Below, piece after piece: positions 3,424 to 20,022 of a stretch of 28,984 nucleotides of DNA. Under the pieces are notes generated by a model. That model was not told the origin of the DNA, searched no databases, and saw only the letters and a list, made by a program, of their open reading frames with translations. How positions within the stretch are numbered: position 1 is the first letter of the stretch; every line of letters begins with the position of its first letter. Position numbers and translations under genes: made by a program. The DNA is from Desulfobacterales bacterium HSG17 (GTDB taxonomy: Bacteria; Desulfobacterota; Desulfobacteria; Desulfobacterales; Desulfococcaceae). The stretch lies in the NCBI GenBank assembly GCA_030377945.1, contig JAUCGD010000023.1:1-28984 (forward strand), read 5' to 3'.

Positions 3424-3507
3424 ATGACCCGTAAAACAGATACATCATGGATGCTGTGGAACCTGATTGTATTTCAGAACTGGTATGAGCGCTGTATGGA
3501 GATGTAA
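3424..3507 (+). pseudogene. C-terminal relic resembling asparagine synthase (AsnB-like)
   Basis: A 27-codon frame ending in TAA at 3505-3507 contains SWMLWNLIVFQNWYERC. The pattern LW-x-L-x-x-F-x-x-WYER is the usual extreme C-terminus of glutamine-hydrolysing asparagine synthases, which are frequent in polysaccharide loci. Nothing else of such a gene is present. It stops immediately before the start of module 1, so it may mark where the island replaced EPS genes. A match over about 17 residues is weak evidence. Confidence 0.35.
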
Positions 3508-4509
3508 ATGACAGATTCAAATGAAAAATTTGTAGTTGACGGTAAAGATTCCCAGTTTGGTATTCTCGGTGAAAATATTCGTGTTGAAGGGGGCATACAT
3601 TTTCATTCATCTGAAAGCGGGGTAAATAAGTCAGAAGACAAATCCGCATTTGGATGGCTTGTTACCCGCATGTGCAACCGGGAAGATCATGACCACAGGT
3701 TCAAGGAGTTTTTTATTGAAAAATCCAATGATGAAAAATGCCGGGATCATCCACAATTTTACATCATTCAAGGCAATGAAGGCCAGTGCCATAACAGCCT
3801 GGTGGAACGTCTTCTTCATACCCATATTAAAAATTTTGTCAGGCAGGAATGGAAAGAAAAAACAATACTGCCAAAGCCTTACAGGGTTTCATGGTTCAAG
3901 GATAAAGAGCTGGAGAAACATAAAAACCGGCTGAAACATGAGGTTTTTTCAGCAGTTAATCCCAGGTACATGGGAGCTGATTATTCAATAAATGCCCTGT
4001 GTTCAATGCCAGGTATAAAAGAATATAATCTTGTTCTTATTGTGCATTATATCCAGGCATCAGAATGGGAGAGCTATTCTGCGGACCTGCTTAAATGGTA
4101 TATGCAGGATTTCTGGTCTAGGCATGAATGCAAAGAAAATATGCCCCGGTTTCTTATTTTTTTTAATATTGAATATCCGGTTCCATCTCCGGGATGCAGT
4201 TTGTTGAAGAGGTTGTTAAAGAAAGAAAATCGTGTAAAAAACCGTGTAATAAAAGATGTTGAGACTGTGTATAATGCTGTAAAAGACTCCTGTAACTGCC
4301 TGCTTTTAGAAGAGATTGATTCTGTGTCAAAAGAAGATGTTAAAAACTGGTTCTTCAAATATACAGAGCTTGGGGATTCAATTTTACATGAAAATCTAAA
4401 AGATTTATTTAAAGATTCAGAGCATAAAAGCATGGCTGAAATTGAGGTATGGCTTCAGAAAATCTATGAAAAGATAGACCGGGAAAGATTCATGTCCCAA
4501 AATGTATAG
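3508..4509 (+). CDS. module 1: inactive-STAND-like conflict-system protein
   Basis: The product has 333 residues. Residues 1-34 form a conserved leader, MTDSNEK...DSQ-G-GEN-RVEGGIHFHS, nearly the same as in the paralog at 9682 although the rest has diverged. The following domain resembles a STAND/P-loop NTPase whose Walker A is lost: strand FYIIQ runs into GNEGQCHNSLVERLL (about 89-103), with no GKS/T. A later hydrophobic strand (YNLVLIVHYIQ, about 175) sits where Walker B would be but lacks the acidic pair. Inactive STAND modules are known partners in MoxR-vWA ternary conflict systems; here the gene directly precedes moxR1. GGAG seven nt upstream fixes the ATG. The role of sensor or adaptor is inferred. 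Confidence 0.75.
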   Translation: MTDSNEKFVVDGKDSQFGILGENIRVEGGIHFHSSESGVNKSEDKSAFGWLVTRMCNREDHDHRFKEFFIEKSNDEKCRDHPQFYIIQGNEGQCHNSLVERLLHTHIKNFVRQEWKEKTILPKPYRVSWFKDKELEKHKNRLKHEVFSAVNPRYMGADYSINALCSMPGIKEYNLVLIVHYIQASEWESYSADLLKWYMQDFWSRHECKENMPRFLIFFNIEYPVPSPGCSLLKRLLKKENRVKNRVIKDVETVYNAVKDSCNCLLLEEIDSVSKEDVKNWFFKYTELGDSILHENLKDLFKDSEHKSMAEIEVWLQKIYEKIDRERFMSQNV

Positions 4510-4528: not shown

Positions 4529-5545
4529 ATGACAAAACAAAGATATATTGACCTGTATATGGGAGACGGCAAAACCCTGGAACAGAGAGACCGCAGGCTC
4601 CCTGAGTATGAACCTTTTATTGGAACTGATGATCCCAAAAATTATATTGCATCAAAAGGTCTTCGCAATGCTGTTAATGTGGCACTTACACTGGGTCAGC
4701 CCCTTTTGATTACAGGAGAACCCGGAACAGGCAAAACCCGTCTGGGAGCAAGCACAGCATGGGAAATGGGGCTTGATCTTCTTGAATTTCATACAAAAAC
4801 CACTTCCACCGCAGCAGACCTTTTTTATCAATATGATGCCCTGCGCCGGTTTCAGGATTCCCAGCTCAAGGAGCAGAAGGCCATAGAGAAATATATAACC
4901 TGCCAGGCTCTTGGCACAGCCATAGTTCTGACAACTCCGGCAGATAAAAGACCGGAACAGGTAAAGAGGATTCTTCCTGAAGATCTCAGGCACAAAGGCC
5001 CTGTGCGCTCAGTGGTTCTAATTGATGAAATTGACAAGGCTCCCCGTGATCTTCCCAATGATATTTTAAATGAAGTTGAAAACATGCAGTTTAAAATAAA
5101 AGAAACCACATGGAAGCCTTTTATTGCAGATCAAAAATTCCGGCCTGTTTTAATTTTAACCAGTAATTCCGAAAAAAATCTTCCTGATGCTTTTTTAAGG
5201 CGCTGTGTGTTTTTTCATATAGATTTCCCGGATGATAATGCCTTAAAAGAGATTGTAATCCGAAGGTTTAAGGATAAATGGGATATAACACCTGAATTTA
5301 CTGATGAATTTATTGAAAACAGTATTAATCATTTTATTGGGGTCAGAAAGCTGAACCTGAAAAAACGCCCTGCAACAGCAGAACTCCTGGCATGGATAAA
5401 CATTGTAAAAACTCTGGGAATTGACATGGCAGCAATCAGGGAAGACCAGAAGGAAAAACTGGAACTGAGTTATTCAGTGCTGGCTAAAACCCGTGAAGAT
5501 TTAAACAGCTTAAAAAATAACCTGACAGAGATGGTAAAAAAATAA
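4529..5545 (+). CDS. module 1: MoxR-family AAA+ ATPase
   Basis: The product has 338 residues. Walker A GEPGTGKT is at 63-70, Walker B VVLIDEID at 162-169, sensor-1 TSNSEKNLP at 211-219, and the arginine pair in FLRRC at about 224-225. The motif TTSTAADLFYQYDALRRF after Walker A is shared with the paralog at 10858 and is typical of MoxR proteins paired with vWA partners. MoxR ATPases remodel or activate vWA-domain proteins; the expected partner is the product of 5719-8424. Start ATG 4529 follows an AGGA, 19 nt after the upstream gene. The original coupling to the vWA gene has been broken by the MITE at 5578-5706. Confidence 0.93.
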   Translation: MTKQRYIDLYMGDGKTLEQRDRRLPEYEPFIGTDDPKNYIASKGLRNAVNVALTLGQPLLITGEPGTGKTRLGASTAWEMGLDLLEFHTKTTSTAADLFYQYDALRRFQDSQLKEQKAIEKYITCQALGTAIVLTTPADKRPEQVKRILPEDLRHKGPVRSVVLIDEIDKAPRDLPNDILNEVENMQFKIKETTWKPFIADQKFRPVLILTSNSEKNLPDAFLRRCVFFHIDFPDDNALKEIVIRRFKDKWDITPEFTDEFIENSINHFIGVRKLNLKKRPATAELLAWINIVKTLGIDMAAIREDQKEKLELSYSVLAKTREDLNSLKNNLTEMVKK

Positions 5546-5577
5546 CAGTAGCGCCGCATTGCATGGCCGCTAACAAT

Positions 5578-5706
5578 TAGATATTACCGGAAATATTTTT
5601 TGTAGGGTGCGTTAGCGCAGCGTAACGCACCGTAACTTTAAAAGGTGCGTTACGGCTATCGCCTAACGCACCCTACGGAGGAAATCTTTATTTCCGATAA
5701 TGTCTA
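5578..5706 (+). mobile_element. 129-bp MITE-like element, copy 1
   Basis: The element has imperfect terminal inverted repeats (left TAGATATTACCGGAAATA, right TATTTCCGATAATGTCTA) and is bounded by TA on both sides. The interior contains an inverted GTAGGGTGCGTTAG / CTAACGCACCCTAC core. Read on the opposite strand it matches the element at 15919-16051. TA boundaries and a short non-coding body suggest a MITE mobilised by an IS630/Tc1-mariner-type transposase, none of which is encoded here. It ends 12 nt before the ATG of the vWA-FGE gene and leaves that gene without a recognisable Shine-Dalgarno. Confidence 0.65.
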
Positions 5707-5718
5707 TTAAATAAAAAA

Positions 5719-8424
5719 ATGCCAAAATTCGAAAACAAAAAACAAAACCTGCCCTTTGAAGATTTTATGGAGCAGTTAAAAATTCAGGGATTTATCCTTG
5801 GCGTAAATCATTACCTGCGCCTCCAGGCAATTATAAACCAGTTTGGTCCGGAATCCACGCCAGACGACCTAAAATATCTCCTCTGCCCCATCTTTGCCAC
5901 AAACAAAAAACAGCAGGAACAGTTTTACCGGGTGTTTGACCGGTATTTCCATTTGCTGAAACTTTCAGATGATTCTGGACCTGGATTTAAGGAACTCAAG
6001 TCAAAACCTGAAGAAAAAAAATCCCCCAAACCCTTGACCCTTAAAAAATGGCCTTATTTTGCTTTTTCCCTGCTGTGCCTTATTATTATTGCCCTGGCAA
6101 TACGGCATTTTGTTAAACCTTCTGAAATTAAACCACCTGGCAAAGTTGTTGAAAAAATACCCATAGAAAAAGGCAAGGTTGAAAGGCGCCCGGATCTCAG
6201 GGAAACCATACCCCTGAGCATCGGCCCGGTTCCTGATCTTAACTTTTACCAGCAATACTGGCCTGTTCTCAGGGGAATGGCCGTATCCCTGCCTTTAATT
6301 ATATTGTTTTTCACCTTTTTATATAAAAGAAAACACCGGGCCTGGGCCATACAAAAGCAGTATGGCAAAAAACCGCCCTATATCTGGCCTATAAAGGTAG
6401 AGCCTCCCCGCCCCGGTTTTCTGACCCATACCCGGTTTTATTCGGCTGCCAACCGCCTCCGTCAGCGTATTGAAAGCGATGTTTTGCGCCTTGATGTTAA
6501 TAAAACCATTGAAACCACCATTAATAAAGCCGGTTTTCCACAGTTCTGCTATCAGGCTGCAACAAAGCCTCCTGAATATCTCTTTCTTGTGGATCTGCCT
6601 GAATATGCAGATCATTATTCCCATTTTATGAAAACAATGGCTGATGCCCTGGTTCAGGAAGGTATTTTTGTGCGCTGCTTTTTTTATGCAGATGATCCCC
6701 AGGTCTGTTTTGAAGAACCTGGAGGACACAGGTTTTATCTTTCGGATTTGCAGTCAAAATTTTCCGGGCGCAGGCTCATCCTTGCAGGAACAGGTGATGC
6801 CCTTCTTGACCCCATGACAGGCAGGCCGGAACCCTGGACAGAGCTTTTTCACACATGGGAGCAGCGGGCGGTTTTAACAACCAGGAATGCAGAAGAATGG
6901 GGAATGAAGGAGATTGCCCTGGCAAAAGATTTTATTGTGCTTCCTGCAAACCTGGAAGGCTTGAATGCCCTGGTAATGTATTTTGAAAAACCTGTGAAAT
7001 ATGATTTGCGGGCCTGGAAAAATACCGGTTTTCAAGTTCCCATGATTTCAGCTCATGACTTAAATAATGCAGATAAGCTTGAAAACCGGCTTAATGATGA
7101 AAGCATTTTTCAATGGGTGTGTGCCTGTGCTGTTTATCCAGAAATAAACTGGAGCCTGACCCTTTACCTGGGTATGCTTCAAAAAAAGCCTGTAAGCGAG
7201 AATGCTTTGCTTACACTTATTCAGCTTCCCTGGTTTAAAACCGGAACCATGCCTGATGATCTGCGTCTTGAACTTATAAGCAGGCTGGATAAAGAAAAAC
7301 TGGCAGTCATCCGTCAGGCTGTTTATGATGTTCTTGAAAAGGATTCGCCTCCTGAAGACAGTGAAGCATGGGAGGCTTACTGCCTGAATCTTGGGGTTTT
7401 AAAATGGATGATCTCTCCTGAAAAACGGAAGTATTTAAAAGAAATCAAGGAAAATGAACAGAGAATTATTCGGGATTATACCTTGCTGCGCCTGCTGGAC
7501 AGCGCTCCAAAATCAATGTTAAGCCTTGTTATTCCTGAAAATCTTCATGATTTGTTTTTCAGGCATGGGATGGCTTTGTTTGGGTTTAGAAAAGGGGTTT
7601 GGGCTTGTATGGCTGTTGTGCTTGCAGTGGCGGGATTTTTGGTTTTTGCTAAGCCTGATCTTCCTGCTGTTACCGCAGGTAAAAGTCTGACACTTGAGTT
7701 TGCCCATATTCCGGCAGGGGAGTTTATGATGGGGAGTCCTGAGAGTGAACCGGGAAGATATAAAGGAGAAGAAAAATTGCATAAAGTAAAACTGACCAAA
7801 GGCTTTTACATGCAGAAAACCGAAGTAACACAGGCGCAGTGGAAGGCTGTTATGGGGAGCAATCCTTCAAATTTTAAAGATTGCGATAATTGTCCGGTTG
7901 AAAACGTTTCATGGGAGGATGTGCAGGAGTTTATAAAACAATTAAATCAAAGGGAAGGGGCGGAAAAGTACAGTCTGCCTACTGAGGCTCAGTGGGAATA
8001 TGCCTGCCGTGCTGGAAGTCGTACACCATATAGTTGGGGAAATGAAGCTGCCTGTGAAAAAATGATGTATGAAAATGATGTTGGAAGTAGTGAAGATAAA
8101 TGTGTTGAATATGTTAAAAAACAGGGTTTAAAATCTGATTCTACTGCTCAAGTAAAAAATTATGCACCAAACGATTGGGGTTTGTATGATATGCATGGAA
8201 ATGTCTGGGAGTGGTGTGAGGATTGGTATGGGGATTATACATTTGAAGCTATAGATAAAGCTGTAGTTGATCCGGTTGGGCCATCAAAAGGCGGTAACCG
8301 TGTTATACGCGGCGGCGGTTGGGACAGCGGCGCGAGGGACTGCCGTTCTGCCGTGCGCAGCAGGAGCGGGCCGGGCTACCGCAACGACTACCTGGGCTTT
8401 CGTCTTCTGAGGTCTTATCCTTAG
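5719..8424 (+). CDS. module 1: CoxE-like/vWA membrane protein with C-terminal FGE-sulfatase (C-type lectin) variable domain
   Basis: The product has 901 residues. In order: a CoxE-like N-terminal helical domain (about 11-80); TM1 (about 111-130); a short loop; TM2 (about 183-202); a degenerate vWA domain (about 285-425, EYLFLVDLPEYADHY in the MIDAS position, so DxSxS is lost); a helical region; TM3 (about 627-645, VWACMAVVLAVAGFLVFA); and an FGE-sulfatase domain (about 657-901) with IPAGEFMMGSP, PTEAQWEYACRAG and DMHGNVWEWC. Positive flanks (KKSPKPLTLKK before TM1, KRKHR after TM2, FRKG before TM3) predict vWA inside and FGE outside. The two FGE catalytic cysteines are not apparent, so this is likely a binding domain. 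Its last ~45 codons are a predicted DGR variable region. ATG 5719 is the only usable start after an upstream in-frame stop. Confidence 0.88.
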   Translation: MPKFENKKQNLPFEDFMEQLKIQGFILGVNHYLRLQAIINQFGPESTPDDLKYLLCPIFATNKKQQEQFYRVFDRYFHLLKLSDDSGPGFKELKSKPEEKKSPKPLTLKKWPYFAFSLLCLIIIALAIRHFVKPSEIKPPGKVVEKIPIEKGKVERRPDLRETIPLSIGPVPDLNFYQQYWPVLRGMAVSLPLIILFFTFLYKRKHRAWAIQKQYGKKPPYIWPIKVEPPRPGFLTHTRFYSAANRLRQRIESDVLRLDVNKTIETTINKAGFPQFCYQAATKPPEYLFLVDLPEYADHYSHFMKTMADALVQEGIFVRCFFYADDPQVCFEEPGGHRFYLSDLQSKFSGRRLILAGTGDALLDPMTGRPEPWTELFHTWEQRAVLTTRNAEEWGMKEIALAKDFIVLPANLEGLNALVMYFEKPVKYDLRAWKNTGFQVPMISAHDLNNADKLENRLNDESIFQWVCACAVYPEINWSLTLYLGMLQKKPVSENALLTLIQLPWFKTGTMPDDLRLELISRLDKEKLAVIRQAVYDVLEKDSPPEDSEAWEAYCLNLGVLKWMISPEKRKYLKEIKENEQRIIRDYTLLRLLDSAPKSMLSLVIPENLHDLFFRHGMALFGFRKGVWACMAVVLAVAGFLVFAKPDLPAVTAGKSLTLEFAHIPAGEFMMGSPESEPGRYKGEEKLHKVKLTKGFYMQKTEVTQAQWKAVMGSNPSNFKDCDNCPVENVSWEDVQEFIKQLNQREGAEKYSLPTEAQWEYACRAGSRTPYSWGNEAACEKMMYENDVGSSEDKCVEYVKKQGLKSDSTAQVKNYAPNDWGLYDMHGNVWEWCEDWYGDYTFEAIDKAVVDPVGPSKGGNRVIRGGGWDSGARDCRSAVRSRSGPGYRNDYLGFRLLRSYP
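8293..8400 (+). other. predicted DGR variable region, VR1
   Basis: This covers residues 859-894 of the vWA-FGE protein. Compared with VR2 (14478-14585) there are 14 nt differences in 12 codons: nine at position 1, five at position 2, none at position 3. In 11 of the 14, one copy has adenine. Variable codons are mostly NNC (GAC/GGC, AGC/AAC, AAC/TCC, TAC/CTC), as expected from AAC codons in a template repeat. Positions 8308-8400 are 73% GC by count, far above the surrounding gene. The site is the classic DGR target, the C-terminal edge of a C-type-lectin-fold domain. Confidence 0.8.
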
Positions 8425-8462
8425 CACTTTTACCCTTTTACCCTTTATGATATATGAGCGGA

Positions 8463-8514
8463 GTCTGGCATCATATGCTGGTCCGCGATAGCGGCCAGTC
8501 ATATGATGCCAGAC
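8463..8514. repeat. hairpin/cruciform with GATA loop, DGR-type recognition element
   Basis: The outer arms are 15 bp perfect complements (8463-8477, GTCTGGCATCATATG; 8500-8514). The inner arms CTGG/CCAG and CCGC/GCGG close a GATA tetraloop at 8487-8490, with single bulged T at 8482 and 8499. DGR target sites carry a GC-rich hairpin with a GRNA tetraloop shortly after the variable region; GATA fits GRNA. There is no T-run after it, so an intrinsic terminator is less likely. Confidence 0.7.
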
Positions 8515-8567
8515 GGAGCGACCGATCACTGGGTAACTAAAAAAGCGCCGCAGGCAGCGCACAAATT

Positions 8568-8638
8568 TTGAATCAGGATTTTCAGGATATGATAAGATAT
8601 CCAGGATATCCTTAAACATCCTGAGCATCTTGATTCAA
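8568..8638. repeat. 71-nt imperfect palindrome of TCAGGAT/ATCCTGA units
   Basis: Starting TTGAATCAGGAT and ending ATCTTGATTCAA, it contains repeated CAGGAT and ATCC(A)GGATATCC units that can fold back on each other. The same sequence is at 14753-14823. From memory, similar units are dispersed in Desulfobacterales intergenic regions. It may terminate transcription from either side. Confidence 0.55.
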
Positions 8639-8657
8639 GCAAACGGTAGCGCCGCCG

Positions 8658-9473
8658 TTATTCGATTTTCTTAAGCCATTTCAGAATTTCTTTTTTTGAA
8701 AATTTTTTTAAAATCTCATCTTCAGGAATACCCTTCAAAATCTGATCAGTAGGAATACCCTTCAAACGTTGGTCAACAGAGAATTGATTCAAAATTTCTT
8801 CATCCGAGAATTTTTCAAAAATGTGGGGCAGAATATACTCTTTATTAAAATCTTCAACAGTATAAGTCATGGCAATAACCTCCTCTATTTTATAAAAACT
8901 TATAAAAATTTCATTTATAACGGAACTTACTTGAGTACGCCATTTGTATTCTGAAAATCCGAATTTAACCGTATCAGGCACAGCACTGAAAAGGTTCCAT
9001 ATGGCATTCTTTTTTTCCTTTGCTACACGACTGAGAACAATGAGCCTGACATTTTTACTTCCCCAACTGATTTCATATACACCTGTACTTACCGGTTTCA
9101 AGTCAGTATATTTTTTAAGATTTTCAGGATACCGGGCACTGACACCGTACAATCTGAAATCTTTTGAATCAAAGAGTTTTCCAGGTGACGGGCTTATCAT
9201 TTTCCGGTAGTTCACGTAATGACCTGTAAGTTCATCAAGTGCCCATGCATCAAGAGCTTGCTGATGTGATTTATATGTCAGCAGATTATGCTTCCCCAGG
9301 TTTTCAAATCCGACAGGGATTTTTTCAGGCCGCATCCCCTCATGTTCTTCAATAATAACAACATCCAAAAACTGCTGTTTGATAGATAAATCTTTTTCAA
9401 GTTCAACCTTGTAGGCTGTGCCTGAAAAAAAGTCAGTAAGAGCTATTCCGAATAAGCGGTGCCATTGAATCAT
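8658..9473 (-). CDS. module 1: putative PD-(D/E)XK (Rpn-like) nuclease with C-terminal 9-residue repeats
   Basis: The product has 271 residues and converges on the vWA-FGE gene. The N-terminal half has a nuclease-like core: YKVELEKDLSIKQQFLDVVIIEE (split about residue 30; D37 and E42-E43 candidate acidic residues) and NLLTYKSHQQALD, which resembles the (D/E)-x-K strand with Thr in the acidic position and Lys at 68. The C-terminus is built of 9-residue repeats of the form [FI]-[SP]-x-D-E-I-L-K-x (FSDEEILNQ, FSVDQRLKG, IPTDQILKG, IPEDEILKK, FSKKEILKW). The copy at 14973-15791 is clearly homologous. The Rpn/PD-(D/E)XK assignment comes from motifs only, so the enzymatic role is uncertain. A promoter-like sequence lies at 9527-9555. 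Confidence 0.72.
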   Translation of the reverse strand: MIQWHRLFGIALTDFFSGTAYKVELEKDLSIKQQFLDVVIIEEHEGMRPEKIPVGFENLGKHNLLTYKSHQQALDAWALDELTGHYVNYRKMISPSPGKLFDSKDFRLYGVSARYPENLKKYTDLKPVSTGVYEISWGSKNVRLIVLSRVAKEKKNAIWNLFSAVPDTVKFGFSEYKWRTQVSSVINEIFISFYKIEEVIAMTYTVEDFNKEYILPHIFEKFSDEEILNQFSVDQRLKGIPTDQILKGIPEDEILKKFSKKEILKWLKKIE

Positions 9474-9526
9474 GATGTTTTCAACCTTGATGCAGAGAAG
9501 TGTATTTTCTTTTGATTATATTCTAT

Positions 9527-9555
9527 ATTTTACACCATACAAAGACAATGTGCAA
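9527..9555 (-). promoter_or_regulatory. candidate promoter of nuclease gene 1
   Basis: On the - strand TTGCAC, 17 nt and TAAAAT occur about 55-80 nt before the start codon. The same two hexamers and spacer length are kept upstream of the second nuclease (15843-15871) although the spacer itself differs, which supports function. Confidence 0.5.
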
Positions 9556-9681
9556 GGGGCTTAATCTGGCAGTTAGTGATCTTTCTTGCATTATTGAATC
9601 AGTGTTAATAAAAAGATCATGAAATAAATTCTTTAATGTTACAATATGAGATTAAGTTTGAAAATAAGATACGGGGTATGA

Positions 9682-10689
9682 ATGACTGATTCAAATGAAA
9701 AGTATGGGGTTGAAAGTACAGACTCCCAGGTCGGTATGATCGGTGACAATAATCGTGTTAATGGCGGGATACATTTTCATTCATATCAAAGCACTCCAGA
9801 GGAAATAAAAGAAAAAAAATCAACTTCTCGCAGTTCCAATGATTCTGAAACCTTTACTCAAAAAAACCGATGGCTTCTTCCATATCTTGTGGATCGGAGA
9901 CAACAGGTTGACTGCCTTGATAAAGCGGTTAATACTGGGAATAAGCCCGGTTCTCCAAAAATATGTCTTGTTCATGGTGATGAAACCCAGTGCCTTGAGG
10001 AATTCATTCAATGCCTTCAACACCGCTATTGGCAGGAATTTGAACCCCGTAACCGGAGTATGGCCGTTCCAAAACTTATTTTGCTTGACTGGCCTTATTT
10101 TTTGGATAATGAACAAGAAATTTCTGACAGGATTATTAAAGATATTTCCAGCCTCCTGCCCCGTGAACTGCATTTTTCAGATAATATCTTTGATGCAGTA
10201 AATAAATCACACAATGGAGCATTGCTGATCTGTACTTTTACCAGTTCCAATCGCCTGAAACATAAAAAGGAGATTGTTGAGCAATTTATAAATTTCTGGT
10301 CATCATGGCCGTCCAGAGGGGCGGGCGGGGTTTTTGTTTCGTGCCTTGTTATAAAATATTCACACAAAAAGGAAGCATATACAAAAAAGTTCTTTGATAT
10401 GTTTTATCGAATATTTAAAAATAATTCCGATAAATTAACAAATCAGGATATTCGTGATATTTTAAATGTCCGCCATTCTCAATGTCTGGTTCCCGAACTG
10501 GAAGGAATTGAAAAAGATCATGCAGATGCCTGGACCCGGCTTCATGAGGTTCAGGAAATCTGTATAAAGAAAAATTTGCAGCCCGGTAGTATAATCCGTG
10601 AAATTTTCAAGAATCAGGAAATAATATCAATGGAAACTTTGGCAAAAGAGCTGAAAACCAAGTTTTTAACAGAGGAGAGCGGAAATTAA
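9682..10689 (+). CDS. module 2: inactive-STAND-like conflict-system protein
   Basis: The product has 335 residues and is paralogous to 3508-4509. The first 34 residues match closely (MTDSNEK, DSQVGMIGDNNRVNGGIHFHS split by variable positions), while a basic, serine-rich linker (40-60) and the rest have diverged. The P-loop position reads CLVHGDETQCLEEFIQCL (about 95-112), again without GKS/T, so ATP binding is unlikely. GGGG at 9673-9676 precedes ATG 9682. A TACAAT at 9640-9645 is a possible -10 element, with no clear -35. It begins module 2 and is separated from moxR2 by an unusual 168-nt structured gap. A sensor or adaptor role is inferred from family context. Confidence 0.75.
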   Translation: MTDSNEKYGVESTDSQVGMIGDNNRVNGGIHFHSYQSTPEEIKEKKSTSRSSNDSETFTQKNRWLLPYLVDRRQQVDCLDKAVNTGNKPGSPKICLVHGDETQCLEEFIQCLQHRYWQEFEPRNRSMAVPKLILLDWPYFLDNEQEISDRIIKDISSLLPRELHFSDNIFDAVNKSHNGALLICTFTSSNRLKHKKEIVEQFINFWSSWPSRGAGGVFVSCLVIKYSHKKEAYTKKFFDMFYRIFKNNSDKLTNQDIRDILNVRHSQCLVPELEGIEKDHADAWTRLHEVQEICIKKNLQPGSIIREIFKNQEIISMETLAKELKTKFLTEESGN

Positions 10690-10857
10690 GGCGAACGCCG
10701 GTTTTTCGCAAAAATGCGCAACCACCTGTCTGGTGAGCAAGAATTATTTTTGGTCAGTCCGAAAAATAATTTTCGAACTCCGGATTTTATAATTTCCAAT
10801 GCAACAACAAAACATGAATAACCTGTGGATTTATCCATAGGTAAAAGGAGACACCCA
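10690..10857 (+). other. hairpin-rich gap between inactive-STAND and moxR2
   Basis: This 168-nt non-coding stretch contains several self-complementary pieces: GGCGAACGCC (10691 region), CACC-tgtct-GGTG, and AATTATTTTT paired with AAAAATAATT around a nine-base loop. The equivalent gap in module 1 is only 19 nt, so this looks like an insertion or structured leader. No known RNA family recognised. It ends with the AGGAG ribosome-binding site of moxR2. Confidence 0.35.
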
Positions 10858-11895
10858 ATGCTTTTCCCCAATTTTTTTTCAGGAAAAGGAAAAAATAAAA
10901 ATGATGAAGCCTGGAAAAATCTTCCCATTCCACAGAAAGAGGCTGAAACCCTGCCTGAAAATTATGATACAGATGAAGAACTGGCCGCTGCCGTTAATGC
11001 AGCCCTGCTGCTTGGGCAGCCTTTGTTTCTAACTGGCGAACCCGGAACCGGCAAGACACAGCTTGCTTTCAGGCTGGCATGGGAGCTTGGATTTGGCAGG
11101 CCCTTCAGGTTTGAAACTAAATCCACCAGCACTGCCCGTGATCTTTTTTACACATATGATACCCTGGGACGTTTTTATGCGGCTCACTGCAATGACTCTT
11201 GCGAGCAGAGGAAAAAACAGGAAAAGGATTATATTACTTACAATGCCCTTGGCCGCGCCATTTTACTGGCTAATGAGCATGAAAAGGTTAAAAAACTGCT
11301 GCCGGAAAATTTTAAGCACACTGGCCCTAAGCGCTCTGTTGTTCTTATAGATGAAATTGACAAGGCTCCCCGTGATTTTCCCAATGATATTTTAAATGAA
11401 ATTGAGAATATGTATTTTCGAATATCTGAGCTTGAGAATGTAAAAATTGAGGCAGATGCACAGATGAGTCCTGTGGTTGTCATTACCAGCAATTCGGAAA
11501 AAAATCTGCCTGATCCTTTTTTACGGCGCTGTGTTTTTCATCATATTGCTTTTCCCGAATCTGACCGGATGAAGCTGATTATGGAAAATCGTTTACAAGA
11601 AATCCCTGTGCGCTCAGACAAGGCCAAAACCCTTGATGACCGGATGTTGTCTGATGCAATGGCTCTGTTTTATCATTTAAGGCTGGAATCTCATGGACTG
11701 CAAAAATCACCGTCCACAGCCGAACTTATAGCATGGCTTCAGGCTCTCCGGGAATTTACAGATATTGATAATCCGGCAGCAGACAGCGGGGCTGTGCAAA
11801 ATACCCTGGGGATCCTGATAAAAAAGCAGGAAGACTTAAAAACAGCAAAGGGAATTGTTGACACATGGTTTCAGAATCGGAACGCTCAGGTTTAA
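10858..11895 (+). CDS. module 2: MoxR-family AAA+ ATPase
   Basis: The product is 345 residues from ATG 10858. Walker A GEPGTGKT is at 60-67, STSTARDLFYTYDTLGRF follows, Walker B VVLIDEID is at 161-168, then sensor-1 TSNSEKNLP and FLRRC. It is strongly similar to moxR1 in the ATPase core (IDEIDKAPRD-PNDILNE-EN) but differs at the N-terminus. ATG 10858 is chosen over an upstream GTG at 10825 because AGGAG lies seven nt before it. The end overlaps the vWA-FGE start by 31 nt, giving translational coupling and probably stoichiometric assembly. This is the undisturbed arrangement that module 1 lost to a MITE. Confidence 0.93.
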   Translation: MLFPNFFSGKGKNKNDEAWKNLPIPQKEAETLPENYDTDEELAAAVNAALLLGQPLFLTGEPGTGKTQLAFRLAWELGFGRPFRFETKSTSTARDLFYTYDTLGRFYAAHCNDSCEQRKKQEKDYITYNALGRAILLANEHEKVKKLLPENFKHTGPKRSVVLIDEIDKAPRDFPNDILNEIENMYFRISELENVKIEADAQMSPVVVITSNSEKNLPDPFLRRCVFHHIAFPESDRMKLIMENRLQEIPVRSDKAKTLDDRMLSDAMALFYHLRLESHGLQKSPSTAELIAWLQALREFTDIDNPAADSGAVQNTLGILIKKQEDLKTAKGIVDTWFQNRNAQV

Positions 11896-14609
11896 TTCAA
11901 AAATTTATCCAAAGCCTGCCCCAATTCCTGGATGAACTGCGCCTGAGCGGATTTAAAATCGGGGTTCGGGAATATCTGAATGTTCAAAAACTTCTGGTTA
12001 AAATGGCAGAAGCAGGACAACTGCCAGACAATCTTCAAAAGGGCAATCTTCATAAGCTCAGGCCCTTTATTGCATCCATTGTGTGCAGCAATGCAGGGGA
12101 GCAAAAAGAGTTTGGCCTGCGTTTTGAAATCTGGATAACCCGTTTTTATTCAGGGCAGGGTGATTTTTCAGAAAAATTTAAACCTGAAAAACCGGAAAAG
12201 ACAGATGTTGAAAAAGTGCGTTCAAAAGCATGGTACTGGATACCGGTTTTTCTAATTCTTTTGGCTGTGTGTGTTTACTTTTTTCCCGATGTTTTTGTTC
12301 ATGAGCCGGTTGTAAAAGTTTTCCAGGAAAATAATCAAATACTGCAGCCCGGCATTCCAGGCACTTTTCTTTTATGGCTGTCCGGGCTTGCACTTCTTGG
12401 CGTACTTATTCGTGAGTTGTGGATGCGGTATCTGGTTTCACGGGCTTTTCTTACAAGGGTATCTGTTTCCGAACCTGTTGAATCACTCAAGTTTTATGTT
12501 TTGGGCAAGTCTCCTGAGCTTTTTAATTCCATTGGATTTTTAAAAGCTGCCCAGGCATTTCGGAGGCATGTTCAAAAACCGGATTCAGCCATAGATGTAG
12601 AAGCTAGTGTGGAAAAGACCATTAGAAACGGGGGATTTTTTACTCCTGTTTCAGGGCTGCGACAGATTACGCCTGAATACCTGGTATTAATTGACCGCAC
12701 ATCATTCCAGGATCATCAGGCAAGATGGATTGATGCTATGGTAAACCGTCTGGCTGAAAATGATGTATTTATCAAACGCTATTATTTTGACGGAGATCCA
12801 AGAAGCTGTATTCCCCAAAAAGGTAAAATTCAGGCTGTTAATCTTCATGATCTGGCAGAACAGTATCCTGAACACAGGCTTATTATATTTTCAGACGGCG
12901 CAGGTTTTAAAGACCCTTTCAGCGGAGAGACAGTGTCCTGGATTGAACAGTTTTATATCTGGGAAGAGCGTTCAATAATGCTTATTCATGCAGACCGGGA
13001 TTTAAGCCGTCATCCTCTGAAGGATTTTGATTTTATTGTAATGCCTGCCAGAGAAAATAATATGGCAGCCCTGATTGATGCTTTTAACAATGAAGTAATT
13101 AATCCCCGTTTATCCAAAGCTTATGCAAAACCCCTTCCGGCATTTATTTCACATCAATATATCCGGCTTCTTGAGCAGTCGGAACCAAAACCTGAGATTA
13201 TAACAGCAATAAATAATTTGCTTGCAAACTATATTGATGAACCAGGCCGGTTCTGGCTTTGTGCCTGTGCTGTTTATCCTGATATTAACTGGGATTTAAC
13301 ACTTTTTCTTGGTCATATGCTTAAAGATAAAGCAGACCGGGAAATATTTTCCAAAAACAGGCTCATGCTCATGGCCCGTCTTCCCTGGTTTCGTTACGGA
13401 TATATGCCTGACTGGTTTCGGCGTTTCCTGATTAATGAATTAACAGGTGAAAAAGAACAGCAGGTAAGGCAGATTCTTTTTGATTTGCTTCAAGATCACA
13501 AGGATAGACTTGAACCAGGATATATCCCTTTAGAAATAGGAAAGCAGTATGATAAACTCATTCCAAGGATGGCAAAATATCTGCTCAGGCTTGCCCAGGT
13601 AAAATCACCAAAAAGCCGTGTTTTCCATGACAGGATTTTTGTAACCTTTATGCAGGACAGGCTTTCCGTAAGAATTTCGAGAATGGCAGGGAATTTTTTA
13701 AGAGGGCTTAATATTGGGAACCAGGAGGAAGATCAAAGTATAAGGGAAAAACACAGTACAGGAAAAGGAGCATCGGATACAGGGGCGGCAGATCAGGTTA
13801 TTGATAAACTAAGCATGAATTTTGCTTATATTAAACCGGGCACGTTTATGATGGGCAGTCCTGAAGATGAACCTGAAAGAATGGCTGATAGAGAACATTT
13901 GCATAAGGTAACTTTGACAAAAGGGTTTTATATGCAAACAACGGCAGTAACAATAGGGCAGTGGAGAATTTTTGCAGATGATACAGGATATAGGTCACAG
14001 GCTGAGACAGAGGATGGAGCCTATGCCTGGACAGGTGAAGACTGGAAAAAAAACAAAGATGTTTACTGGGACAATCTCGGATTTGAACAGGAGGAAGATC
14101 ATCCTGTCACTTGTGTTTCCTGGAATGATGCACAGGTATTTATAAAATGGATTTCGGAAAAGGATGGAAAAATTTACAGACTGCCAACAGAAGCCGAGTG
14201 GGAATATGCCTGCCGTGCAGGAACAGACACTCCTTTTTCTTTTGGAAAATGTCTTTCCACAGATCAGGCAAACTATGATGGAAATTATCCTCTTGAAGAT
14301 TGTCCCAAAGGTACGTTTCGGGGAAAAACAACCCCGGCAGGAAGTCTTGAAGCCAATGCCTGGGGTTTGTATGATATGCATGGAAATGTTTGGGAGTGGT
14401 GTCAGGATCGGTTTGGGGATTATACATTTGAAGCTATAGACAAGGCTGTTGTAGATCCAGTTGGAGCTATAGAAGGCGATGACCGTGTTGTACGCGGCGG
14501 CAGTTGGGGCAACCGCGCGAGGGACTGCCGTTCTGCCGTGCGCGGCAGGGGCGGGCCGGGCGACCGCTCCGACCTCCTGGGCTTTCGTCTTCTGAGGTCT
14601 TATCCTTAG
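11865..14609 (+). CDS. module 2: CoxE-like/vWA membrane protein with C-terminal FGE-sulfatase (C-type lectin) variable domain
   Basis: The product has 914 residues. Domains: CoxE-like N-terminus (about 10-95), TM1 (about 122-142), TM2 (about 166-186), vWA-like domain (about 270-400) with YLVLIDRTSFQDH in the MIDAS position (D277, T279, S280, partly kept) and the typical LIIFSDG strand (D344), a helical region, and an FGE-sulfatase domain (about 650-914; MMGSPEDEPE, PTEAEWEYACRAG, DMHGNVWEWC). Unlike the paralog it has no third hydrophobic segment before the FGE domain: residues 620-648 are polar (EEDQSIREKHSTGKG...). With N-terminus inside, the FGE domain would be cytoplasmic. FGE catalytic cysteines are not apparent. 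The C-terminal ~45 codons are the second predicted DGR variable region. Start overlaps moxR2. Confidence 0.88.
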   Translation: MVSESERSGLIQKFIQSLPQFLDELRLSGFKIGVREYLNVQKLLVKMAEAGQLPDNLQKGNLHKLRPFIASIVCSNAGEQKEFGLRFEIWITRFYSGQGDFSEKFKPEKPEKTDVEKVRSKAWYWIPVFLILLAVCVYFFPDVFVHEPVVKVFQENNQILQPGIPGTFLLWLSGLALLGVLIRELWMRYLVSRAFLTRVSVSEPVESLKFYVLGKSPELFNSIGFLKAAQAFRRHVQKPDSAIDVEASVEKTIRNGGFFTPVSGLRQITPEYLVLIDRTSFQDHQARWIDAMVNRLAENDVFIKRYYFDGDPRSCIPQKGKIQAVNLHDLAEQYPEHRLIIFSDGAGFKDPFSGETVSWIEQFYIWEERSIMLIHADRDLSRHPLKDFDFIVMPARENNMAALIDAFNNEVINPRLSKAYAKPLPAFISHQYIRLLEQSEPKPEIITAINNLLANYIDEPGRFWLCACAVYPDINWDLTLFLGHMLKDKADREIFSKNRLMLMARLPWFRYGYMPDWFRRFLINELTGEKEQQVRQILFDLLQDHKDRLEPGYIPLEIGKQYDKLIPRMAKYLLRLAQVKSPKSRVFHDRIFVTFMQDRLSVRISRMAGNFLRGLNIGNQEEDQSIREKHSTGKGASDTGAADQVIDKLSMNFAYIKPGTFMMGSPEDEPERMADREHLHKVTLTKGFYMQTTAVTIGQWRIFADDTGYRSQAETEDGAYAWTGEDWKKNKDVYWDNLGFEQEEDHPVTCVSWNDAQVFIKWISEKDGKIYRLPTEAEWEYACRAGTDTPFSFGKCLSTDQANYDGNYPLEDCPKGTFRGKTTPAGSLEANAWGLYDMHGNVWEWCQDRFGDYTFEAIDKAVVDPVGAIEGDDRVVRGGSWGNRARDCRSAVRGRGGPGDRSDLLGFRLLRSYP
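14478..14585 (+). other. predicted DGR variable region, VR2
   Basis: This covers residues 872-907, offset exactly 6185 nt from VR1 with no indels. Invariant blocks (GCG AGG GAC TGC CGT TCT and the following GCC GTG CGC) separate variable NNC codons: GGC, AAC, CGC, GGC, GGC, GAC, TCC, CTC here against GAC, AGC, GGC, AGC, AGC, TAC, AAC, TAC in VR1. All variation is at codon positions 1-2. Confidence 0.8.
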
Positions 14610-14647
14610 CACTTTTACCCTTTTACCCTTTATGATATATGAGCGGA

Positions 14648-14699
14648 GTCTGGCATCATATGCTGGTCCGCGATAGCGGCCAGTCATATGATGCCAGAC
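14648..14699. repeat. hairpin/cruciform with GATA loop downstream of VR2
   Basis: Identical to 8463-8514: 15-bp outer stem, inner GC-rich stem, GATA loop at 14672-14675. Its perfect conservation contrasts with the diverged coding sequence upstream of the variable region. Confidence 0.7.
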
Positions 14700-14752
14700 G
14701 GAGCGACCGATCACTGGGTAACTAAAAAAGCGCCGCAGGCAGCGTACAAATT

Positions 14753-14823
14753 TTGAATCAGGATTTTCAGGATATGATAAGATATCCAGGATATCCTTAA
14801 ACATCCTGGGCATCTTGATTCAA
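14753..14823. repeat. 71-nt imperfect palindrome, copy 2
   Basis: Same CAGGAT/ATCC palindrome as 8568-8638 with one substitution (14809 G). Confidence 0.55.
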
Positions 14824-14826
14824 GCA

Positions 14827-14921
14827 AACGGTAGCGCCGCCCTACGTGGCGGCAACCGGGGCGTATCCTTTTGTTTAAAGGGAATCGTAACCGTGCCGCC
14901 ACGTAGGGCGGCGCTACCGTT
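14827..14921. repeat. 95-bp element with perfect 28-bp inverted repeats
   Basis: The left arm 14827-14854 begins AACGGTAGCGCCGCCCTACG; the right arm 14894-14921 is its exact reverse complement, with about 39 nt between. The first 15 nt (AACGGTAGCGCCGCC) also occur at 8642-8656, directly before the first nuclease stop, and a GTAGCGCCGC piece occurs near 5548. This looks like a REP/MITE-type intergenic element. Confidence 0.6.
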
Positions 14922-14972: not shown

Positions 14973-15791
14973 TTAACAGTCTGAATCCATTTTCTTAAGC
15001 CATTTCACTAATTCTTCTTTTGAAAAATTTTTTAAAACCTCATCAATAGGAATATCTTTCAAACGCTCATCAATACTAGCTTTTTTCATCAGTTCATCAA
15101 TAGAAATTTTTTCCAAAATTTCTTCCACAGAAAATTCGGTAATATGCTCCAGGGCATATTCTTGATAATAATCTTCAACAGTATAAGTCATGGCTATAAC
15201 TCCTTCTGTTTTATATGTATTTAACATTTCAGTCATGATAGAACTGACCTGTGTGCGCCATTTATATTCTGAAAATCCAAATTTAATTGTATCAGGCACA
15301 GCACTGAAAAGATTCCACATGGCATTCTTTTTTTGCTTTGGTACACGGCTGAGGACAATGAGCCTGATATTTTTACTTCCCCATCTTATTTCATATACTC
15401 CGGTACTTACATGTTTCAAAACAGCATATTTTTTAAGATTTTCAGGATATCGGGCACTGACACCGTACAACCTGAAATCATCGGAACCAATAAGTTTTCC
15501 AGATGACGGGCTTATCATTTTCCGATAATTAACATAATGACCTGTAAGTTCATCAAGTGCCCATGCATCAAGAGCCTGTTGATGAGATTTATATGTCAGC
15601 AGATTATATTTCCCCAGGTTTTCAAATCCGTCAGGGATTTGTTCAGGTCGCATTCCCTCATGTTCTTCAATAATAACAACATCCAAAAGCTGTTGTTTCA
15701 TAGATAAATCTTTTTCAAGCTCAACCTTGTAGGCAGTGCCTGAAAAAAAGTCAGTAAGAGTTATTCCGAATAAGCGGTGCCATTTAATCAT
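14973..15791 (-). CDS. module 2: putative PD-(D/E)XK (Rpn-like) nuclease with C-terminal 9-residue repeats
   Basis: The product has 272 residues and is homologous throughout to 8658-9473. It keeps the same core pieces (AYKVELEKDLSMKQQ, LDVVIIEEHEG, NLLTYKSHQQALDAWALDEL), and its C-terminal repeats have drifted (FSVEEILEK, ISIDELMKK, ASIDERLKD, IPIDEVLKN, FSKEELVKW). Maintenance of a convergent copy beside each conflict cassette suggests it belongs to the module, perhaps as effector or mobility nuclease; this is inference. The canonical acidic residue before x-K appears as Thr in both copies, so activity is uncertain. Promoter hexamers are conserved upstream. Confidence 0.72.
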   Translation of the reverse strand: MIKWHRLFGITLTDFFSGTAYKVELEKDLSMKQQLLDVVIIEEHEGMRPEQIPDGFENLGKYNLLTYKSHQQALDAWALDELTGHYVNYRKMISPSSGKLIGSDDFRLYGVSARYPENLKKYAVLKHVSTGVYEIRWGSKNIRLIVLSRVPKQKKNAMWNLFSAVPDTIKFGFSEYKWRTQVSSIMTEMLNTYKTEGVIAMTYTVEDYYQEYALEHITEFSVEEILEKISIDELMKKASIDERLKDIPIDEVLKNFSKEELVKWLKKMDSDC

Positions 15792-15871: not shown

Positions 15872-15918
15872 GACCATTAAGCGGGCATTTTGTGACCTTT
15901 CTTGCATTATTTAATCAA

Positions 15919-16051
15919 TAGACATTATCGGAAATAAGGATTTCCACCGTAGGGTGTGTTAGGCGATAGCCGTAACACACCGTTATTTTAAGGCTGCGGT
16001 GCGTTACGCTGCGCTAACGCACCCTACAAAAATTATTTCCGATAATGTCTA
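15919..16051 (-). mobile_element. 133-bp MITE-like element, copy 2 (inverted relative to copy 1)
   Basis: Near-perfect terminal inverted repeats (TAGACATTATCGGAAATAA at the left and its reverse complement at the right), TA at both ends, and the internal GTAGGGTG / CACCCTAC core. Its reverse complement aligns with 5578-5706 over the whole length. It sits exactly where similarity between the two nuclease upstream regions ends, at the right edge of the island. Confidence 0.7.
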
Positions 16052-16109
16052 ATATTGATTGGCTATCCACTTAAGCCGCAACACCTTTAAAAATAGGTGT
16101 TGGCAAACC

Positions 16110-16195: not shown

Positions 16196-16255
16196 TTCAA
16201 ATTGAGTTTATGCTAACAACCATTTTGGGGATTGCCGGAGTTTAAGGGGGCATCA

Positions 16256-17440
16256 TTGCATAAAATAATCCACATAATAACTCGGCTGGATATGGGCGGT
16301 TCTGCCCAGAACACCTTGCAGACCTGTCTTGGATTAAACAAAGATAAATATGATGTTACCCTGGTTTACGGGCTTTCCCTGGAATCAAAGATGACAGATG
16401 AGGAAATTTTATCTGTTCAAAGGTTAGTTGAATCCGGGAAAAAAAACAGTGTCAGTTTTATCTGCCTTCCTTCCCTGGTTCGTAAAATTGATCCTTTAAA
16501 AGATGCTGCTGCTCTTGTTTTTCTGATTTGTCTTTTATTAAAAAAACGTCCTGAAATTGTCCATACTCATACTTCAAAGGCCGGGATACTGGGCAGGCTT
16601 GCAGCCTGGTTTGCCAGGGTTCCGGTTATTATCCATACTCCCCACGGCCATGTGTTTTACGGCCATTTCAGAGCAAACCTGACCGCATTTTTCCTGATAA
16701 TTGAGAAAATCATGTCATTGATTACCCGCAGGATAATAATGCTGACTAAAGGAGAGAAAAACGACTGCATCAAACTCTGCCTTGCCCCTGTTAAAAAAAT
16801 AATGACCATACACAGCGGGGTTGATATTGATGTATTTGCAGGTTCTGGAACTGATAGAAATAATATAAAAAATCAGCTTGGTCTTGAACCTGATAATATC
16901 GTAATAGGAACGGTTGGCTGGCTCCTTCCCATAAAAGGTCCCAAATATCTTTTAAAAGCCATGTTCAGGGTATGGCAGGATTTTCCTGATGTAAAACTGC
17001 TTTTTGTTGGAAAAGGGGATTTAAGAATTGAGCTTGAAACTGAAGCAATGAAACATGGTGTATTGGATAAAGTTTTTTTTGCAGGATGGCGGGATGATGT
17101 TCATGAAATCATGCATGTTTTTGACATATTTGTCCTGGCCTCTTTAAATGAAGGCATGGGCAGGGTCATTGTTGAGGCTATGGCAGCAGGAAAGCCTGTT
17201 ATTGCAAGCAATACAGGGGGAATTCCCGATCTGCTAAGTCACGGGAAAAACGGACTGCTCGTTCCTCCGGCAGATGCAGATGCTCTGGCACATGCAATTT
17301 TAAACTTGTTATTAAATCCTGAAAAAGCTTTGATTATGGGCTTGAACGGGAAAAGAAAATGCTGGAATTTCAGCCTTGATTTTATGATGGAAAAACTGGA
17401 AAATCTTTATGATGATTTGTTAAAAAAACGGAGAACATGA
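16256..17440 (+). CDS. GT4-family glycosyltransferase
   Basis: The product has about 394 residues: KIIHIITRLDMGGSAQN at the N-terminus, HTHTSKAGILGRLAAW and HTPHGHVFYGHF in the acceptor domain, and the C-terminal donor-binding EGMGRVIVE E-x7-E motif near residue 297 followed by MAAGKPVIASNTGG. Start is taken as TTG 16256 because GGGGG lies five nt before it and the protein then begins right at the first strand; an upstream TTG at 16232 would add eight residues. It opens the downstream polysaccharide cluster and resembles GT4 enzymes that extend the lipid-linked repeat unit. Sugar specificity cannot be read. Confidence 0.93.
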   Translation: MHKIIHIITRLDMGGSAQNTLQTCLGLNKDKYDVTLVYGLSLESKMTDEEILSVQRLVESGKKNSVSFICLPSLVRKIDPLKDAAALVFLICLLLKKRPEIVHTHTSKAGILGRLAAWFARVPVIIHTPHGHVFYGHFRANLTAFFLIIEKIMSLITRRIIMLTKGEKNDCIKLCLAPVKKIMTIHSGVDIDVFAGSGTDRNNIKNQLGLEPDNIVIGTVGWLLPIKGPKYLLKAMFRVWQDFPDVKLLFVGKGDLRIELETEAMKHGVLDKVFFAGWRDDVHEIMHVFDIFVLASLNEGMGRVIVEAMAAGKPVIASNTGGIPDLLSHGKNGLLVPPADADALAHAILNLLLNPEKALIMGLNGKRKCWNFSLDFMMEKLENLYDDLLKKRRT

Positions 17441-17443
17441 TAA

Positions 17444-18184
17444 ATGATAGCTGCAATCCACCAGCCCCAGTATCTCCCCTGGCTCGGATATTTTGATAAA
17501 ATGGACAGGGCCGATGTTTTTTGTTATCTTGATAATGTTCAGTTTAAGAAAAATGAATGGCAGAACAGAAACCGGATAAAAAATTCAAAAGGCTGGCAGT
17601 GGATAACCCTTCCTGTGTGCTACCGTTTCCCTCAGAAGATTAATGATGTTGAAATCAATACTAATGTTAAATGGCAGAGAAAGCATATTCAGGCTTTAAT
17701 AACAAATTACAGCAAAACGCCTTTTTTTGAAAAAGTTCTGTCATTTTTTAAACAGATATATGCAAATGATTATAAATCATTTGCCAGATTGGCCATTTCT
17801 ATTAATGAACAGGTGCGCAGGGAACTTGGGGTTGATACCCATACGTTTAGTGCTTCGGAAATGAATTTAAAAAACGAAAACCCAACAGGGCGGCTTATTG
17901 AAATCTGCAAAAATCTGGGAGCTGACACCTATCTTGCAGGCCAGGACGGGGAAAAATATATGGATATGAAGCTTTTTAAGGAAAAAGGGATTAAGGTTAT
18001 TTTTCAGAGATTTAATCACCCGGTTTATCCCCAGGCTTTTGGAGGTTTTATATCACATCTTTCTGTTGTTGATCTTTTATTTAACTGCGGTGATGAAAGC
18101 ATGGAAATAATCAGAAAATATAATCCTTTACAAGAGGGGTATTATGATAAAAACAAATATTCTGGCCATAGGCGCTCATCCTGA
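17444..18184 (+). CDS. WbqC-family protein
   Basis: The product has 246 residues. The WbqC signature is clear at the N-terminus (IHQPQYLPWLGYFDKM, with DVFCYLDNVQFKKNEWQNRN following) and in TYLAGQDGEKYMD. Family members occur in O-antigen and capsule loci, and some modify sugars or lipids; no reaction can be assigned here. GGAG ten nt upstream supports ATG 17444, three nt after the previous stop. The 3' end overlaps the PIG-L gene by 41 nt, so the two are co-expressed. Confidence 0.9.
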   Translation: MIAAIHQPQYLPWLGYFDKMDRADVFCYLDNVQFKKNEWQNRNRIKNSKGWQWITLPVCYRFPQKINDVEINTNVKWQRKHIQALITNYSKTPFFEKVLSFFKQIYANDYKSFARLAISINEQVRRELGVDTHTFSASEMNLKNENPTGRLIEICKNLGADTYLAGQDGEKYMDMKLFKEKGIKVIFQRFNHPVYPQAFGGFISHLSVVDLLFNCGDESMEIIRKYNPLQEGYYDKNKYSGHRRSS

Positions 18185-18767
18185 TGATATTGAATTCGGG
18201 TGCGGTGGAACCCTGATTAAATTTGCAGAAAAAGGTCACAGATTGTTTATGCTGGTCATGACATATGGCGGTTCAGGTGGGCAAGCCGAGATAAGGACAA
18301 AGGAACAGAAAGATGCCCAGGCTATTATGTGTGTTGAAAATATTTTCTGGGGTGAATATGAAGATACCAAGCTTGAAATTAATAAAGATACTATTATGAC
18401 AATAGAAAATACCATCCAACAGGTTAAGCCCAGTTTTATTTTTTGCAGTTATCCTGAAGATACGCACCAGGATCACCGCCATCTTGCACAGGCAACCATA
18501 TCTGCAACACGCTATGTGCGAAATGTTTTGTTTTATGAAGGACCTACTACCCAGAATTTCACTCCCCAGGTTTATGTTGACATTTCTGCTGTGCTGGAAA
18601 AGAAAATGGATGCACTCAAGGCCCACCGCTCCCAGGTAATGAAAACCAATATTGAAGATCTTTCCATTCTTGAGCTTGCCAGATCAACTGCAAACTTCAG
18701 GGGAATCCAGGGCAGGGTCAAGTATGCTGAAGCCTTTTATTCCCAGAGGCTTTTTATTAATATTTAA
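18144..18767 (+). CDS. PIG-L-family deacetylase
   Basis: The product has 207 residues of the LmbE/PIG-L zinc-dependent N-deacetylase family. The zinc site is visible as AIGAHPDDIEFGCGG (H12, D15) and the later PEDTHQDHRH segment (about residues 105-114). It likely removes an acetyl group from an amino sugar in the polysaccharide precursor or polymer; substrate inferred from context. GAGGGG precedes ATG 18144. Overlap with wbqC and a two-nt gap to the aminotransferase show one operon. Confidence 0.92.
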   Translation: MIKTNILAIGAHPDDIEFGCGGTLIKFAEKGHRLFMLVMTYGGSGGQAEIRTKEQKDAQAIMCVENIFWGEYEDTKLEINKDTIMTIENTIQQVKPSFIFCSYPEDTHQDHRHLAQATISATRYVRNVLFYEGPTTQNFTPQVYVDISAVLEKKMDALKAHRSQVMKTNIEDLSILELARSTANFRGIQGRVKYAEAFYSQRLFINI

Positions 18768-18769
18768 TC

Positions 18770-19846: not shown

Positions 19847-20022
19847 CATATCCCTTGCCTTTAAGTAGGGCAATCCTACGAATGAATACATTCTGCTCCC
19901 CATTGATTAATTAAATTTTCAATGTAATATTAATTAATATGGAATTTTGCCTGGAATGCCCTTCATTTTATGTGTATTTTGTTAATTTCATGATTAAATT
20001 TTATATAAGGCAGGAAATAACA

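Follow-up and report, generated by a model that had tools for sequence, protein, structure and literature searches.

Among the closest described relatives of the locus reported here are systems in which diversity-generating retroelements (DGRs) meet conflict-type ATPase genes. The DGR targets of Thiohalocapsa PB-PSB1 have closely related C-type lectin (CLec) ends and divergent N-terminal parts, and its degenerate loci DGR 4 and DGR 5, which match the template repeat (TR) of DGR 2 at all non-adenine sites, are served in trans (Dore et al. 2024, PMC10907252). In the iSTAND MoxR-vWA ternary systems, the vWA protein has a four-helix N-terminus, sometimes with an N-terminal transmembrane segment, and FGS, which is the same domain as FGE, is the commonest effector (about 22%) (PMC7159879). 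The hairpin of phage-type DGR targets is GC-rich, has 7-10 bp and a GRNA loop, and is located 4-34 bp past the variable repeat (VR) (PMC3240598). In this study we analysed a stretch of DNA from Desulfobacterales bacterium HSG17, called the window, which is one entire contig (JAUCGD010000023.1) of 28,984 bases. Two iSTAND-MoxR-(vWA-like)-FGE units lie side by side in the window with identical gene order. The FGE tails of both units carry the marks of DGR recipients, and they are probably rewritten in trans by a reverse transcriptase (RT) and a TR located elsewhere in the genome.

Variation between the two FGE tails

The features on which the argument depends are the following, IMH standing for initiation of mutagenic homing.
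5719-8424, plus strand: target gene 1, encoding N-terminal helices, two long helices, a vWA-like domain and a C-terminal FGE/CLec domain
8323-8390, plus strand: VR1 core, the variable FGE-tail codons of unit 1 (template-compared stretch 8302-8409)
8391-8656, plus strand: near-identical tail, matching 14576-14841 with differences only at 8560 and 8624 (2 of 266 nt)
8395-8414, plus strand: IMH-like segment of VR1, ending in the recipient-type switch AGGTC
8428-8446, plus strand: 19-nt target-flank element TTTTACCCTTTTACCCTTT of unit 1, 3 nt past the stop codon at 8422-8424
8463-8514, plus strand: long hairpin/cruciform-forming inverted repeat of unit 1, with loop GATA and small bulges (z -6.0)
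11865-14609, plus strand: target gene 2, encoding a homologue of the target gene 1 product with FGE at residues 655-911
14508-14575, plus strand: VR2 core, the variable FGE-tail codons of unit 2 (template-compared stretch 14487-14594)
14580-14599, plus strand: IMH-like segment of VR2, identical to that of VR1
14613-14631, plus strand: 19-nt target-flank element of unit 2
14648-14699, plus strand: the same hairpin behind VR2

The initial annotation had described the 3' ends of the two target genes as hypervariable, and our recount reproduced its figures. The stretches 8293-8400 and 14478-14585 differ at 14 sites in 12 codons, with nine, five and zero differences at codon positions 1, 2 and 3, respectively; one copy has A at 11 of the 14 sites, and the other three are G/C, T/G and T/C. 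The seven differences at the third base only that had been claimed for the upstream 108 nt were present there, among 15 differences of which eight fall at position 3, the eighth (8283) being in a codon also changed at position 1. The lack of position-3 differences in the tail has a P value of 0.003 by itself and of 0.002 as compared to the upstream stretch (0/14 versus 8/15), and the count of sites where one copy has A (11 of 14) has a P value of 0.03 against an expectation of one-half. Taken alone, these codon-position and A-count tests are suggestive. The variable core is corrected here to 8323-8390. Among the leftmost sites, 8305 and 8317 have A in just three of the eight related TRs described below and are not strong template-A columns, and 8294 and 8296 fall outside the template-compared stretch; all four differences may be ordinary divergence. 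Neither VR1 nor VR2 contains a stop codon.

Templates of related DGRs and the lectin fold

A query with the VR tail against 389 genomes from the order to which Desulfonema magnum belongs matched 28 genomes, including 20 with a match in the VR part, and three matches adjoin RTs. The related loci contain RTs with a GN(L/I)(T/I)SQ motif, noncoding TRs with AAC runs and, in most cases, FGE targets. Ten of the 12 differences between VR1 and VR2 within 8302-8409 fall in the 23 of 108 columns that have A in at least six of the eight RT-adjacent TRs (P 1.5e-6). Five of these eight TRs came from tblastn with an N-rich peptide, so the set is biased toward A (that of L139 was initially read from its RT locus); with the two TRs found by plain BLASTN only (L144 and L158), 11 of the 12 differences lie in 29 A columns (P 1.0e-6). 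Judged by proxy, on the templates of related genomes, the differences mostly fall at template-A positions.

Template A is the site of 192 of the 194 differences in 13 TR-VR pairs (nine templates, seven genomes). An RT adjoins eight of the nine paired templates, and none was seen beside the template of G002, a genome that was excluded from the RT-proven set. The VR-less TR candidates L158, L160/L190 and L210 and the odd L182 were excluded from the 194 differences, and the AAC-run sites in L001, L010, L026 and L093 are outside the pair set. Genome G369 encodes a complete DGR with bAvd, RVT_1 and a NACHT-FGE target, and its template differs from both VRs at A only. This template was located by a scan minimising non-A mismatches, which gave 0 in 100 for both VRs and at least 30 at the next place outside the DGR's own repeats. 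The two VRs of this one TR differ at 17 sites, all template A and 11 with A in one copy, a pattern much like the 11 of 14 of the window copies. The same DGR (L223, contig C206) is compact, with bAvd, RT, TR and two VRs, each with an exact 19-mer, in 5.8 kb, and is a good experimental model.

The wider family gives a further sign. Among 33 homologues, mean entropy is 3.18 bits at the 11 AAC-template residues and 1.31 bits at the remaining 25 residues of the VR (P 1e-5). The residues E, K, M, Q and W, which NNC cannot encode, occupy 10 of 352 cells at the 11 AAC-template columns, compared with 541 of 2030 cells in FGE columns of equal variability (P 3e-30). This scarcity fits most variable codons descending from AAC, and it agrees with the earlier proposal that the variable NNC codons are the product of template AAC. 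The C-terminal domain had also been likened to the lectin fold of TvpA, which was supported by the first place of TvpA in the fold ranking for the unit 1 protein; a PDB search with the FGE domain placed active FGEs above TvpA. The variable residues are displayed on a C-type lectin or similar fold.

Recipient-type switch, 19-nt element and hairpin

At the IMH switch after GFR, GG is present in all 13 paired VRs and another base in their respective TRs. Both window copies have AGGTC at the switch, which is the recipient type. The unpaired template L158 also has AGGAC at this place.

The 19-mer TTTTACCCTTTTACCCTTT gave 11 matches in 380 genomes (this sample of the order and that of 389 overlap widely), and its reversed control gave one. 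Ten of the 11 are directly past the stop codon of an FGE tail, the exception being in G024. In G369 the 19-mer trails both VRs and not the TR. In G084 the VR that it trails is on a different contig from the TR and RT, and 12 of 13 differences are at A. Near forms of the element trail the VR of G118 and that of G002 (HSG8), the latter with 20 of 20 differences at A. Among 80 loci of many phyla, 4 of 89 FGE tails carry the 19-mer at no more than three mismatches, whereas none of 1600 random windows does (P 7e-6); the four belong to an acidobacterium, Hatepunaea, Desulfaltia and a Magnetococcales bacterium. The element marks one target class only, because the paired VRs of G032, G047 and G068 do not have it. 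The exact 19-mer was absent from the viral collection searched, the hairpin, VR and 19-mer patterns each had no match in viral contigs, and the plasmid collection searched with the VR and tail gave none. A literature text search for the 12-mer ACCCTTTTACCC returned unrelated matches only, and the extracts of the DGR literature cited here mention no element like the 19-mer. Its position and specificity suggest that it may bind a DGR protein or ease the opening of the hairpin. The loop of the hairpin, GATA, fits GRNA, and the stem is bulged, longer than the phage type and 48 nt past the IMH-like segment. A plain terminator was rejected for this hairpin, which lacks a T run behind it.

Old paralogues with a recently shared tail

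The FGE-protein bodies of the two units are 27% identical over 569 columns and the MoxR proteins 47%, and closer kin were found elsewhere, at 59% to L203 for the first MoxR, 62% to L167 for the second, and 40-41% to L163 and L167 for the bodies. The units are old paralogues, because the bodies have diverged and the closer kin sit in other genomes. In the stretch that precedes the FGE domain, likeness between the copies is about 50-75% for most 100-nt blocks. Judged from the sequence, the near-identical tail was made alike recently between these old paralogues, via gene conversion or a moved cassette. Over 8302-8656, the copies differ at 10 of 23 A columns and at 4 of 332 other sites (P 1.3e-10), which argues that the A sites were rewritten after the tails became alike. 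The tail identity itself cannot be ascribed to DGR copying, since published models end the copying at the IMH and the identity extends about 240 nt further. Blocks 8700-9599, which cover the minus-strand ORF behind the tail, are 70-93% alike between the copies, so the right-hand limit of sharing is not sharp, and an earlier round of sharing may have included both the tail and this ORF.

A dispersed intergenic repeat is also present at 8565-8640 and 14750-14825 (AATCAGGATTTTCAGGAT ... ATCTTGATTCAAG). It has matches in other genomes of the order, with several copies in G124, and is the sole match part in 8 of the 28 matching genomes.

Alternative explanations

No DGR-type RT was found in the window by tblastn with eight DGR RTs (best E 0.047), and no TR was found in the 28,984 bases searched, from which we infer either action in trans or a lost machine. 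These two absences weigh against present rewriting, and so do several other results. Five of the eight genomes with a 19-mer FGE tail, one of them essentially single-contig, show no DGR-type RT (RVT_1 matches lacking the G..SQ motif were not scored as DGR RTs). G068 and G047 were searched for TRs belonging to their vWA-like-FGE homologues, and no homologue could be paired. Lesser points, which lower the odds slightly, are the exclusion of G002 from the RT-proven set, the eight genomes matched by the dispersed downstream repeat only, the tie in the fold ranking that TvpA headed, the likeness that continues into the blocks behind the tail, and the three genomes whose paired VRs have no 19-mer.

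A second match in G047 was rejected as a template, being a VR-like copy with 12 of 40 mismatches at A, and four homologue tails (including L172) scanned against the loci analysed gave no template, the best having at least 15 non-A mismatches in 105. In G068, a TR pattern of the GGGW type matched exactly at the TR already known from contig C12 and, with two mismatches, at a site on C29.

The missing RT and TR of the window, and the five genomes in which a 19-mer tail occurs with no DGR-type RT, would also be expected if a past DGR had made the variation and had since been lost, leaving the tails as fossils, and leftover targets have been published for Treponema denticola isolates (PMC4891356). 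We consider this unlikely, as rewriting continued at A columns (10/23 versus 4/332 in the rest of the shared tail) after the tails became alike, and there is a stop codon in neither VR. Ordinary diversifying selection on a ligand-binding surface, combined with gene conversion of the tail and no DGR, is very improbable. Such selection favours codon positions 1 and 2 too, and the shared tail needs gene conversion or a moved cassette, but it predicts neither the excess of differences at columns where templates of other genomes have A (P 1.5e-6) nor the near absence of E, K, M, Q and W at AAC-template columns, and it gives no reason for the recipient-type IMH switch or for a 19-mer behind the targets of complete DGRs. 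A recent tandem duplication of the whole unit, with the tail differences as first point mutations, would agree with adjacent units of the same gene order, but it is refuted as the source of the 3' identity by the divergence of the unit bodies (MoxR 47% and bodies 27% identical, with closer kin in L203, L167 and L163), and its probability is negligible.

Rewriting in trans by a DGR is supported by the template-A columns, the IMH switch and the 19-mer shared with complete DGRs, and the DGR character first proposed for these hypervariable tails is supported. In the proposed course of events, an error-prone RT would copy a TR that has AAC at the variable codons, the cDNA would enter at the IMH, helped by the 19-nt element and the hairpin, and about a dozen residues of the lectin-fold domain would be swapped. 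By analogy with published models, an invader molecule would be bound at the FGE end, the signal would pass through the MoxR ATPase and the vWA-like part, and the response would be set off by the iSTAND protein or a partner. In G084, a trypsin-iSTAND protein adjoins MoxR.

We tentatively propose, as a possibility about which we are rather doubtful, that the VR, IMH, 19-nt TTTTACCCTTTTACCCTTT and hairpin together form a transferable 'mutate-me' cassette. It might act as a cis tag that a single class of FGE-type DGRs reads in Desulfobacterota and that draws the retroelement in trans to whatever gene tail bears it; close variants of the tag would occur in other phyla. Such a cassette could be swapped whole between paralogous sensors, as in units 1 and 2, so that one template would diversify many conflict-system sensors.

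Gene layout and neighbouring sequences

The remaining genes of the two units, and an ORF next to the first, are listed below.
3508-4509, plus strand: iSTAND protein of unit 1 (PF19995, E 2.4e-20)
4529-5545, plus strand: MoxR-type AAA ATPase of unit 1 (PF07728/PF00004)
8658-9473, minus strand: ORF of unknown family at the end of unit 1, a possible member of the system, with a 78% identical protein at 14973-15791
9682-10689, plus strand: iSTAND protein of unit 2 (PF19995, E 1.2e-18)
10825-11895, plus strand: MoxR-type AAA ATPase of unit 2 (PF07728/PF00004), 47% identical to that of unit 1

The two units are predicted to be iSTAND MoxR-vWA ternary conflict (infection-sensing) systems, the defence role being a prediction from the literature. 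In the target gene 1 product, Pfam FGE spans residues 663-898, and its two long helices may be of the membrane type, by our reading of the sequence. We infer the vWA-like domain of the target proteins. The closest named homologue of the window FGE protein is from Desulfobacterales bacterium HSG16, and some homologues belong to other phyla. A PDB search with MoxR gave a partial midasin match (E 7e-5), and PADLOC returned weak matches for the MoxR proteins and none for the other proteins submitted. The first 112 nt of the iSTAND genes (3507-3618 and 9681-9792) have 81% DNA identity, which is above most of the remaining gene, and this stretch is possibly a homotypic adaptor segment. The minus-strand pair at 8658-9473 and 14973-15791 encodes proteins of 271 and 272 aa with repeated C-terminal motifs, one adjoining each unit; no match was found for either protein in Pfam or NCBIfam, nor for the first protein in PADLOC. 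Inverted repeats of 78-84 nt, 85-90% complementary, at 5560-5718 and 15907-16069 bracket the region from the first FGE-type gene through the end of unit 2, and they might permit a 10-kb inversion. The stretch 16232-28901 is an exopolysaccharide-type cluster with glycosyltransferases, WbqC, PIG-L, a DegT aminotransferase, an FG-GAP-repeat export protein, a Wzz/ParA-type protein and an O-ligase-like protein. Rfam and tRNA scans of the window gave no match.

Significance and comparison with known systems

A large metagenomic DGR survey stated that its own RT-centred approach would miss remote targets (PMC8144416). If the short tag on one class of FGE-type DGR targets is true, orphan sensors could be counted directly, with no need for an adjoining RT. 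Work on cyanobacteria could only suggest a cis feature that lets a distant template act (PMC7517822), and the 19-mer is a concrete candidate for such a feature. Two old paralogues were shown to share one fresh variable tail. If these tails are indeed rewritten, DGR hypermutation would be linked to iSTAND ternary systems, and the cell could go on altering what its sensors recognise.

As compared to the BPP-1 DGR (Guo et al. 2011, PMC3240598), the window tails likewise have an IMH unlike its template counterpart, followed past the VR by a hairpin whose GATA loop fits GRNA. The window hairpin differs in being longer, bulged and 48 nt past the IMH-like segment, whereas the published distance is 4-34 bp from the VR, and the extracts of that article describe no 19-nt element between IMH and hairpin. 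Treponema denticola TvpA and other FGE/CLec variable proteins of DGRs share the FGE/CLec variable domain. Unlike the TvpA type, the lectin domain of the window is fused to helical and vWA-like sequence on its N-terminal side, lies within a ternary conflict unit and has no RT or TR detected in the window. The STAND-FGS counter-invader systems are alike in that FGS domains often occur with DGR components, adjoining or elsewhere in the genome; they are different in being STAND NTPase-FGS fusions, for which the consulted portions of the article describe no VR, IMH or flank element (PMC8195603). Thiohalocapsa PB-PSB1 also has DGR-diversified CLec sensors beside MoxR ATPases and duplicated targets, but its ternary systems are of the VMAP type or variations, and iSTAND is absent from the main text of that paper (PMC10907252). 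The iSTAND MoxR-vWA ternary systems agree with the window units in MoxR and in iSTAND as the third component. The DGR link and confirmed TRs were reported there for VMAP systems (PMC7159879), whereas the window carries recipient marks in two tandem iSTAND units.
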